From NCBI GenBank assembly GCA_026874595.1, contig CM049308.1, positions 94,047,624-94,111,623 of the forward strand: a stretch of DNA of 64,000 nt. The letters are read 5' to 3'. Shown in pieces: positions 47,158-56,100 of the stretch (its first letter is position 1; each line of letters opens with the position of its first letter). The stretch comes from Sipunculus nudus (Eukaryota; Annelida; Sipuncula; Golfingiida; Sipunculidae). The notes under the pieces were generated by a model, which did no database searches, was not told where the DNA came from, and saw nothing but the letters and a program-made list of their open reading frames with translations. The position numbers were made by a program, and so were the translations under genes.

Positions 47158-50100
47158 ATGGCCACATATCAAGAGTTTATTCAGCAAAATGAAGATCGAG
47201 ATGGAATCCGATTTAGCTGGAATGTCTGGCCTTCAAGCAGGCTGGAGGCCACTCGTATGGTGGCTCCGTTAGCGGCCTTGTACACTCCCATTAAAGAGAG
47301 GCAAGACCTCCCACCCATCCAGTATGATCCAGTCATGTGCACAAAACCAAACTGCAGAGCTGTACTCAACCCATTTTGGTAATTATGATCATTTATTTAT
47401 ATATTTTATCATATAAATTGCAACAGTTACACAACTGAGTGTATTGTATTCCAGTCAAAAGTTAAAATGAATCTTTAGTTAGTGGCTACATATAAATTGG
47501 CTTCCTGTTCTTTTCAAAGCCTGTATGATGGAAGTAGATATGTTGAGCATGGAACAAATCTCAAAATTTAAATTAATGTCTGATCCAGAATATAAGACCT
47601 GGTCTGTCAGTCACTTGTTTTCCTTTCTTATATTTCAGTAACATGACTTCTCACTCTAGTTTCTTAAATGATTCAATACTCTTACAGTTGTGCATTACAG
47701 ACCGAAAGACATTTGAATAATTTTGTCTCTACATTAAAATTCTGTACAAAATGGGGAATTAATGTCATTATTATTTTTACATATAAATTTTAATTTTTAC
47801 AGCCAAGTAGACTACCGTGCAAAACTGTGGTCTTGCAACTTTTGCTTCCAAAGGAATCCAGTAAGCATATTTTCTTTTATTATTTAGATGGATTAATATT
47901 TAGCCTTCAAATTGGCGTTCCAAGAGGACATGAAACTGAAGTTACCACTGCTAAGGCAGACCGTTCATAAATAGATCTTGGTATTAGCACAGATGTCAGA
48001 TTTTTGTCATGTATGAAATTATAAATATCCTCTCCAGAAAATTACCAAAAAAGAGTAATCAGACATACTGACAGATTGGATTGGTGTTACATGAATGGAA
48101 AGTGGATGATAAAAGTGTAAACAAATTAAAACTTGAATTTATGTTTGGAATCCTATTTTTTTCTGTCAGTGTATTTTTTTCTAAGATTTACTTAACTTCA
48201 GTAAACATCCACTTTGGGATATTCTGATAATAGAACAAGTGAATTAATTTTATTTATCTGCTTGGGCTTTCATGTAATGAAATTGATTTCATTGTTGATG
48301 TTGAATTTTAACATTAATTTATTAATGATTATTGTTGTACATTTCAGTTCCCACCTCAGTATGCAGCCATTTCTGAGCAGCATCAGCCCGCAGAGCTTAT
48401 ACCTCAGTTCTCAACCATTGAGTACACACTGACAGTAAGTACATTGACATGAACAGACAGTTCTCAACCATTGAGTACACACTGACAGTAAGTACATTGA
48501 TATGTACTGAAAGTTCTCAACCATTGAGTACATACTGACAATAAGTACATTGATATGAACAGACAGTTCTCAACCATTGAGTACACACTAACAGTAAGTA
48601 CATTGATATGAACAGACAGTTCTCAACCATTGAGTACACACTAACAGTAAGTACACTGACATGTACAGACAGTGCTCAACCATTGAGTACACACTGACAG
48701 TAAGTACATTGATATGTACAGACAGTTTTCAGACATTGAGTACATACTGACAGTAAGTACATTGAAAGGTACTGACAGTTTTCAACCAAGATTTCTTACC
48801 GTAAGTACATTGTACTGATATGTACAGACAGTTTTCAACCGTAAGTACATTGATATGTACTGACAGTTCTCAACCATTGAGTACACACTGACAGTAAGTA
48901 CATTGATATGTACTGACAGTTTTCAACCAAGTTTTCTTACCGTAAGTACATTGATATGAACAGACAGTTTTCAACCATTGAGTACACACTGACAGTAAGT
49001 ACATTGTTATGTACAGAATTCCTTACAGGTTTCTACTCGGGAAACTTTTCTATGGTAAAAAAGAAAGTTTGAGATTTAAGCTCAACCTCCCAATAACTTA
49101 CAATATTACAACAAAATAATCATAAGGTCAAATTAAGATCTAAAACATGCATCGGTTAATTTCAGAAAGCATATGCCATAAAAGGTTCCATGTAAGCTTA
49201 GCAACACAGCCATCAACCATGAATAGTTATTTTATTGTGTAGCTAAAGTGAAATAAGCTGATAAATAAGTTTTGTTATATAAACAATATTGATTAAAAAT
49301 ATAAAATTTTGGTATTGATAAATTATGAAAGAGAAATTAATGAAATATTTTTAATTTGTCTCTAATTTAGACCTTAATTATAGATAAATTTCCTTAAGCA
49401 CAGTTAACTTGCTAAATGGCTTGTTTGCAGACTAAAAAGTCCAGAAATTTAATATAAAATACTTCCTTTTTTGCTTGACAGAGGGCGACCTGTAACCCTC
49501 CCGTGTACCTGATTGTCCTGGATACCTGTATGGAAGAAGATGACCTTCAGGCAGTCAAGGTCATTTCAGTTTGAAATTGATGTTAATTTATCCTCATAGA
49601 GAAATTCATTAATGAATACAGTCCATTGTTTCTTCCCTTGTTCTCACTGGAAACAAATGTAAGTGTTATGTTGTATAAATATACTAAGCAAGGAGTATAA
49701 GATGTTAACCTGTAGTAAATAAAGATATCTCTTCAAGTGAACTTGAATTGATCAGATTTTCCAAGGTATTTATAGTACCCCTCCTACATGAATCCTTGCT
49801 TATTAAGCCAATATCATTAAGTTCATCATGCTGTGTGTGTTATTGCTATCATTTTGTTTTGATGTATTTTTAATGTGCCCCTGTTCCATTTAAATTACTA
49901 AATTTCATTGTTTCTTGTTGTTCACAGGAGTCCCTGCAGATGTCCCTTAGCCTGCTGCCTCCAAATGCTCTGATTGGTTTGATTACCTATGGCAAGATGA
50001 TCCAAGTTCATGAACTCGGTTGTGAGGGCTGTTCCAAAAGCTATGTATTCCGTGGCACCAAGGACCTCACTGCTAAACAAATACAGGTAAAATCTTAAAT

Positions 50101-53100: not shown

Positions 53101-56100
53101 GCACGGTGTTCTCCAGATTTTGAATGTTTTAGCAAATTTACTTGAAAATTGTCTCCAGTTAATTACTTTTTGACCTCATCACCTTTTTCATGCTGTTATT
53201 TTCACTGAATGATGCTATTGTAGTGTTGTTATCCTAACACTGGAGCCCGTGTCATGCTGTTCATGGGAGGTCCATGCACCCAGGGACCCGGCATGGTGGT
53301 CGATGATGAACTCAAACACCCCATCAGGTCACACCACGACATCGAGAAAGACAACTGCAAGTTCATGAAGAAGGCAATCAAGGTGAGGGCCTGCCACAAA
53401 CCAGTAGTCATGGTGTATGTAATCACACAGAATTGTTGTTCTGTCTAACTGTATTGTTTCTTGATTAAGTATATTTAATATCACATCATGTTATGACAGC
53501 ATATTATTATTTATTATTGTCAAAATCACAGTCGCTAAAATTCAGTCAGCTGAGCATTGTCAGAAAATGGTCTCACATCATTGTGTTATGCTTTGTTCAC
53601 TGTGTTGTAAAAAGTCTTGATATCATACAAATCTTTGAGACCTGCCCGTGTGTTTTGCACTGTACCACTAGTATGTCATTATTACTTTCTCTTAGTGTGT
53701 ACTTCATCCTTTCAGCATTACGAGGCTATAGCCAAGCGAGCGGCCACAAACGGTCACATCATTGACATCTACTCCTGTGCTTTAGATCAGACTGGACTTC
53801 ACGAGATGAAATTCTGTCCTAACTACACAGGGTAAGTGTGTCATCCCTGCAGTGATATTTATTTCTTGCAGCACATAATGCTCAGGGGGATTGATTTTCA
53901 TTCTTTTACAGTGATTAATAGTGGTGATTGATCTATCATAAATAGGGTGTTTGGCTTACCTTTTTATTCTACCATACATATTGGTGTCATTTGTATTATC
54001 TTTACCAAAAGTTATATTTTCAAATTTGTGTAACTCTCTGTCCATCCCTCATTCCAGCCATCAATTTGTTTGTGTAGAAGATTTCTCCAAATAAGCTGTG
54101 AATAGGATTTGTAAGAAAAAAGGAATAAATGTGGTTCATGGTGAAAAAAGGAATAAATGTGGTTGATGGTGAACAGAACTACAATTTGTTGAATTTTTAG
54201 TGGATCTGGATCTATATTTGAATCAATTAACATTTTTCGTTTGTTTGTATATCTTTCTCCAACTGCTATTTTTGCTAACATTTGATAAAGGATTTTTGTC
54301 AGATGTATTGAACTTGATGGGTTTTAGATTATGTTTTGGAGACAACCCTGTGCTGTAGTGCAGATTTATGTTTGTTTTACAGTGGTCACATGGTGATGGG
54401 GGATTCTTTCAACACCTCCCTCTTCAAGCAGACTTTCCAGAGATTTATGTTTGTTTTACAGTGGTCACATGGTAATGGGGGATTCTTTCAACACCTCCCT
54501 CTTCAAGCAGACTTTCCAGAGATTTATGTTTGTTTTACAGTGGTCACATGGTAATGGGGGATTCTTTCAACACCTCCCTCTTCAAGCAGACTTTCCAGAG
54601 ATTTATGTTTGTTTTACAGTGGTCACATGGTAATGGGGGATTCTTTCAACACCTCCCTCTTCAAGCAGACTTTCCAGAGATTTATGTTTGTTTTACAGTG
54701 GTCACATGGTAATGGGGGATTCTTTCAACACCTCCCTCTTCAAGCAGACTTTCCAGAGATTTATGTTTGTTTTACAGTGGTCACATGGTAATGGGGGATT
54801 CTTTCAACACCTCCCTCTTCAAGCAGACTTTCCAGAGAGTGTTTTCTAAGGATGCAAAGAATGAATTCAAGATGGCCTTCACGACAACACTAGAAGTCAA
54901 GGTAAACATCATCTCAGCTGATCACATGTCAAGGAAGCAGCGTTAAGTAATTGTTTGTCAGACGTTTGTTCATTAATGAAAAAATCATAATAAAAGTGAT
55001 TTTTATCCTTGTTACCAACAGAAACCTTAGTATACTTTTCAAATTGGCCTATTTAGGGAATAATTTAACAGGATATATGCTGTCAGTGCAAGAGATTAGA
55101 TTAGATCATGTTTAACAATCATTGGCTAAACTAGGTGTTGCATAAGATGATAATTGTACCATTTGTTACCTAAAGTGAAACAGGAACTGTCAGTGTGTTC
55201 TTTAGTGCTGTGATTTATTCTGTTTGTCATTCAGACCTCAAGGGAACTGAAAGTCCAGGGCTGTATCGGGCCATGTATCACCGGCAACGCTAAAGGCGGT
55301 AACGTGTCAGATACCGAGATCGGCCAGGGGGGGACCTCACAGTGGAGAATCTGTGGACTTTATCCGAACACCACTTACGCTCTGTACTTTGAAGTTGTCA
55401 ATCAGGTAAACAGGGATGGCCTTCTGTAGGTTAACTCTCCACTAATACTGTTTAACTAACTTGCTCATTGTATTTTAACCATTCAACTGAATGATAACCA
55501 GATCTGTAAAGGATGACCAGTGCATTCCCTGTATACAAAGAGTAATGAATACTGGCATAGTGTTAGATACAGAAGTCCATAAACTCTCAACTAGTTTAAA
55601 ACTAGTTTAAGGTTATATTAAGTTTAAATAATTGTATACTTATCATCACTATTGCTTGATTTTAAGATATATTATTTCAGGTATATATCACTCAGCTCTA
55701 GCCAAGAGACATTTCAGAATGACCATTTATTTAAGATTTAAGAATATGAGGTCTGAGATTTTTAACACAGTGCTTATGTGAATAAAATCCTTAATATTCA
55801 ACATCCTTTGATGTGTATGAATCTGATGGTTTAATCTTATGATGTTGTTGCAGCACAACGCACCGATTCCACAGGGCGGCCGAGGTTACATTCAGTTCAT
55901 CACAAACTACCAACACTCTAGTGGACAGCGTAGAATAAGAGTGACCACAGTGGCCAGAAAGTAAGCACCAAGGAAGCTTGGGCAGTGATCTTGTGTTTAA
56001 ACCATTGATTGTATAGCTATGGTTCAAATCCAGCTGAAGTGACCTTTGAATAAGTTAGTTATTCACAGAATTAATACATATTCTTTAATAAGAACTTCTT

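Follow-up and report, generated by a model that had tools for sequence, protein, structure and literature searches.

Tandem arrays across three splice junctions of one SEC23 gene, probably minisatellites of the mirage type

SEC23 is an inner protein of the COPII coat. Here, we describe its gene in a 64,000-nucleotide stretch of Sipunculus nudus DNA (GenBank assembly GCA_026874595.1, contig CM049308.1, positions 94,047,624 to 94,111,623 of the forward strand; hereafter the window), in which tandem arrays lie across three of the gene's 36 splice junctions: the exon 3 donor, the exon 6 donor and the exon 10 acceptor. Assembly of GT-AG exons into a single open frame places the gene at positions 47158..61872 of the plus strand, with 19 coding exons and a product of 778 amino acids (aa) that matches residues 1-777 of human Sec23A at 1422.8 bits. 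The gene is complete, all of its introns are GT-AG and the coding frame is open across the 19 exons. In an alignment of 20 proteins, junctions 3|4 and 9|10 are free of gaps against the 19 relatives, a statement that covers these two junctions and not junction 6|7, which adjoins a gapped Q-rich linker. The original prediction that three SEC23 junctions carry minisatellites was borne out by Tandem Repeats Finder (TRF), by the full gene model and by a scan of all 36 junctions.

Array 1 (48405..49017; arrays and exons are all on the plus strand) comprises 12 copies of a 53-bp unit, delimited by TRF and unit alignment, in which the last 30 nt of exon 3 are joined to the first 23 nt of intron 3. Exon 3 itself occupies 48348..48434 (87 nt), with the true donor at 48435, and the donor GT is kept in 11 of the 12 copies. 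Array 2 overlaps the end of exon 6 (50511..50629, 119 nt; true donor at 50630) and has a unit of ~37 bp composed of ~24 nt of exon end and ~13 nt of intron 6 start. By the same two methods it consists of a first part with seven donor copies (50605..50865) and a second part with 37 more, degenerate at its end (51126..52441), which TRF splits into 51126-52357 and 52359-52441 (periods for array 2 as a whole, 37/43 bp). GT is kept in 44/44 of these donor copies and CAGGT in 42/44, and most of the 44 read CAG|GTA. The initial list of copies came from GT-requiring patterns; a GT-independent search with the exon side alone recovered 40 of the 44, each then followed by GT, together with zero extra copies, and outside the insert the copies are spaced too closely for another to have been missed. 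This insert is a non-array stretch of ~260 bp (50866..51125) that splits array 2 and holds a tRNA-like piece at 51021-51091, which matches the Rfam tRNA model RF00005 at 29.8 bits (gathering threshold 29, E 0.036); ARAGORN, set to the bacterial code, did not report a tRNA there. Judging by this match, the piece is probably a tRNA-derived short interspersed element inserted in the array.

Array 3 (54362..54838) consists of six copies of a 79-bp unit (TRF, 79 bp x 6.0, 99%), in which 21 nt from the end of intron 9 are joined to the first 58 nt of exon 10. Exon 10 (54778..54901, 124 nt) is spliced from the sixth acceptor, the sole acceptor that yields the 778-aa product. Each unit also contains a branch-point-like TTTAT 14 nt from the AG, seen as a pattern match only. 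The six copies are identical except for a single base in the first, and the array looks young on that account; arrays 1 and 2 appear older, their units sharing a mean pairwise identity (gaps counted) of 0.79 and 0.76 and showing higher-order TRF periods of 159 and 72/109 bp. Each array had been described as starting at the true junction, which proved incorrect: the arrays span their junctions, with onsets 30 nt within exon 3 and 25 nt within exon 6, and the real junction of array 3 sits in the last copy. The accompanying claim that every unit carries both exon and intron bases holds for typical units and fails for array 1 copies 8, 9 and 11, whose exon parts are changed or shortened, and for array 2 copies 35 and 37, which are cut to ~19 bp.

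Computed splicing gives the full-length 778-aa SEC23 only via the exon-proximal site of each array, which is the first donor in array 1 and in array 2 but the last acceptor in array 3. Use of any of the 59 other copies would bring an early stop: at 127 aa for the inner copies of array 1 (11/11, of which 10 keep GT), at 241 aa for those of array 2 (43/43) and at 430 or 437 aa for the other acceptors of array 3 (5/5). Extension of the protein by inner copies was considered and rejected, given that 0/59 do so. The usable copy is always the option with the shortest exon (87, 119 and 124 nt), and exon definition favours the choice of such sites. In array 1, 10 of the 11 decoys have U1 pairing energies of -7.0 or -7.1, against -7.0 for the true donor, and in array 3 all six acceptors share an identical 21 nt; by these measures the decoys in both arrays are not disabled.

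In the junction scan, a 35+35-nt segment at each junction was compared with ~1200 bp on the intron side, with shuffled controls. Scores at the three array junctions were 120, 75 and 140, where the best shuffles reached 26, 37 and 25. The remaining 33/36 SEC23 junctions gave zero junction-spanning matches beyond the set margin over the shuffles; two of them, the exon 2 and exon 5 acceptors, exceeded the best shuffle by 3, with matches confined to intron bases. Exact core words, one per array unit, occur only within the SEC23 gene when both strands of the window are searched, which, together with the differing unit sequences, fits separate origins of the arrays. No relatives of the locus were found among 38 pattern matches in genome contigs or among 19 in viral contigs.

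We consider it probable that the three arrays are minisatellites of the mirage type, namely neutral junction-spanning duplications that were tolerated and later expanded. On three separate occasions, a short stretch of exon and adjoining intron would have been tandemly duplicated, and the arrays would later have grown by unequal exchange or slippage. Selection would scarcely see the duplications, since the spliceosome, through exon definition, would pair the copy adjoining the complete exon and remove the other copies with the intron. Exon-internal duplications would mostly be lost, leaving survivors in introns or across junctions. The neutrality of the arrays and the route of their expansion are what we infer from this picture.

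Several observations weigh against it. That the exon-proximal site is the one used in RNA is predicted from sequence. The true donor of array 2, with a U1 pairing energy of -8.3, pairs more strongly than 42 of the 43 inner copies and as strongly as the remaining one; selection against decoys, as opposed to neutrality, could be the reason. The 6-nt core CAGGTA of array 2 took only 3 of 69 changes, the lowest of 37 windows. The edges of array 1 show 0 bp of microhomology (the duplication joint of array 3 shows 3 bp). Finally, the placement of the three arrays exceeds random expectation to a degree that is suggestive and would allow for an active junction bias. In the placement test, arrays were collapsed to one unit and the seeds placed within the gene, leaving out the TA microsatellite at 61610 and the sub-rows of the three arrays. 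A random seed spans a junction with a probability of 0.16 (53 bp), 0.11 (37 bp) or 0.23 (79 bp), and all three do so with P = 0.004, or 0.006 with exon-internal seeds excluded. With two intronic two-copy arrays added (five in total), P for at least three is 0.016-0.024 (0.017 by formula), and with three weak arrays as well (TRF score 42-44; eight TRF arrays in total) it is 0.027. The gene was picked because the pattern was seen in it and the P values are uncorrected for that choice; hence, they are suggestive only. The enrichment over random placement that the original prediction had proposed to look for is suggested within this hand-picked gene at P 0.004-0.006 and weakens to 0.027 with eight arrays, and values from 0.004 to 0.03 do not firmly exclude chance placement.

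These values bear on the idea that the sequence at splice junctions has an inherent tendency to amplify, through breakage linked to replication or transcription or through AG|GT repair, so that arrays seed preferentially at junctions. It draws on the fact that 3/3 arrays of at least three copies span junctions (P ~0.004, the TA microsatellite excluded), that both site types are affected (two donors and one acceptor) and that the same kind of array occurs in several amphioxus genes. We nevertheless regard it as unlikely, given that 33 of the 36 junctions have no junction-spanning copy, the three seeds vary in length and junction side, arrays 1 and 3 have no shared joint and P becomes 0.017-0.027 once purely intronic two-copy arrays are counted, with gene choice not yet allowed for. 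Of the earlier proposal of three independent events with a shared mechanism, the separate origins agree with the differing units and the gene-only core words, whereas a mechanism specific to splice sites is not needed to explain them. A broader joint reading, in which junction minisatellites occur genome-wide in an annelid-like lineage above chance and array 2 undergoes recursive splicing, is decidedly improbable. Its second part starts from the fact that splicing to an inner CAG could restore a CAG|GT donor, so that the intron could be removed stepwise with the mRNA unaltered; if true, recursive splicing would make such arrays self-protecting.

Selection might instead keep the arrays, either with their donors as U1-binding platforms or with unproductive splicing setting SEC23 dosage. 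The near-complete retention of GT and CAGGT in array 2, the standing of CAGGTA as its least-changed 6-nt window and the truncated products predicted from all 59 inner copies speak for this. Changes were counted on a neighbour-joining tree of units after columns filled in <60% of copies had been dropped; array 1 was examined at a single window width and array 2 at two, and the donor core stood out at the narrower of these only. At 9 nt, the donor window is unremarkable in both arrays: of the 32 changes in array 1 it took 2, a count that 14/53 windows (itself included) match or undercut, and of the 69 in array 2 it took 8, matched or undercut by 8/37. Given that the six columns are one of two widths tried and that array turnover can produce the same pattern, the counts offer weak support at best for selection on the array 2 donor core, and array 3 is too young to be judged. 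The selection for extra splice sites suggested earlier therefore keeps the CAGGTA core in its favour and loses the 9-nt windows, and we hold maintenance by selection to be very unlikely. More improbable still is an assembly artefact through collapsed or falsely expanded repeats. The copies of array 3 are near-identical, a type that assemblers may miscount, and the amphioxus BflGb6 array was, according to the part of the source available, apparently misassembled in the genome draft (PMC3087553). However, arrays 1 and 2 are diverged and array 2 is interrupted by an unrelated stretch, which makes assembly error an unlikely source, and the gene around the arrays is intact.

In a SEC23 protein tree of 51 rows, midpoint-rooted for drawing, the window protein falls within a clade of Owenia, Lamellibrachia, Capitella and Helobdella (support 95/86). 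The inner fork that links it to the other annelids of that clade has a support of just 88/59, and the top protein identity in the tree set is with oyster (86%); with this weak fork and this top match, the tree most likely points to an annelid or close kin. An affinity to amphioxus was rejected on the basis of the annelid clade (95/86) and of the Branchiostoma protein, which is 78% identical in the 20-protein alignment. Mollusc SEC23 isoforms were also rejected as reflections of the array junctions, given that the two from Mya (P0008, P0020) differ at the C-terminal linker. Four aligned isoforms of the brittle star Amphiura (P0043, P0047, P0057, P0080) differ both at this linker and at the exon 6|7 position; P0043 carries R there, in place of the longer segment present in the remaining three (SDHLMS in P0047). 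The difference touches the array 2 junction on its acceptor side, and splicing at the exon 6|7 site may perhaps be variable elsewhere too.

The rest of the window contains several further repeats and mobile elements; the Pfam scan outside SEC23 covered 8 reading frames only, chosen by eye. A retrotransposon at 87-6529 on the minus strand is of the Ty3/gypsy type, judged by domain order: its open reading frame (ORF) at 90-4499 (minus) has protease, reverse transcriptase, RNase H and integrase domains, and the ORF at 4466-6529 (minus) has a CCHC zinc knuckle and is probably gag. An ISXO2/IS1595-like transposase domain (61.4 bits) lies at 40798-41292 on the minus strand. A 278-bp repeat family forms three dispersed arrays (19455-20109, 26255-27374 and 33383-34023) with the palindrome GGTGGCGCCACC, an inverted repeat of ~2.3 kb with 89% identity occupies 36760-39113 and 42711-45037, and a 24-bp tandem array of 11.9 copies lies within a 108-codon stop-free stretch at 13450-13735 on the plus strand.

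The original prediction knew of no described class of such minisatellites, which was wrong given the mirages of amphioxus and the donor minisatellite of human IFI6. The comparisons below draw on those parts of the cited sources that were available. Mirages are tandem repeats across exon-intron boundaries in amphioxus Adh3 and the globins BflGb6 and BflGb9; they show signs of concerted evolution and haplotype length differences, the authors' data suggest regular splicing for Adh3 and the globins, and mirages are discussed as possibly general in cephalochordates (PMC3087553). They are also named for amphioxus TnC, with regular splicing stated, and for PGBD5, with two arrays in one gene (PMC3902484), and their units measure 10 to ~160 bp (PMC3087553, PMC3902484). 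The SEC23 arrays resemble them in their boundary-spanning tandem copies, on the donor or the acceptor side, with splice signals in many copies. Typical units of arrays 1 to 3 span the boundary (30+23, ~24+13 and 58+21 nt of exon and intron), and the authentic junction at the array edge is predicted to leave the coding sequence unchanged, with a 778-aa product. They differ in that three arrays occur in one gene and in that the host groups with annelids, its place in the protein tree putting this mirage set outside amphioxus; in addition, array 2 has 44 donor copies, whereas for PGBD5 and BflGb6 the available parts of those sources name 2 to 7. Among the papers listed by searches of open-licence literature, we saw none that reports annelid mirages or three within a single gene.

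The donor minisatellite of human IFI6 (6-16) has a short unit. It supplies multiple splice donors (Turri et al. 1995, cited in PMC4526556), and two downstream repeat units are reportedly used as donors, giving isoforms (PMC4526556). A donor-site minisatellite with multiple donors is common to both genes. In contrast to the isoforms described for IFI6, every extra SEC23 donor leads to a stop codon, and 0/54 inner donors (11 in array 1 and 43 in array 2) give a full-length product. A model of intron gain by AGGT tandem duplication treats AG|GT as a proto-splice site (PMC4974935), and AG|GT is likewise present in the array 2 units. However, the duplicated segments of SEC23 overlap existing introns and no new intron is seen arising; the acceptors of exons 4 and 7 are, judged by eye only, unlike the array units. 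In human segmental duplications, 162 alignments have variable exon-intron-boundary repeats, with 27 intron modifications after manual check; these repeats alter transcript structure in recent paralogues (PMC2812944), whereas the SEC23 coding sequence is predicted to be unchanged. Exon-4 duplications in earthworm metallothionein, one of them inverted, are missing from the transcript and may be a distant parallel (PMC12783039).

Three mirages in a lophotrochozoan housekeeping gene suggest that other minisatellite-active, intron-rich genomes can produce them. Such arrays may mislead gene predictors and may serve as raw material for new introns, and each is a natural test of splice-site choice, with 44 donor-region copies or six acceptors of which only the exon-proximal one is usable. 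Compared with the known systems, the SEC23 arrays, of which one is very large, are a clear case of a repeat type that is known but has seldom been described.

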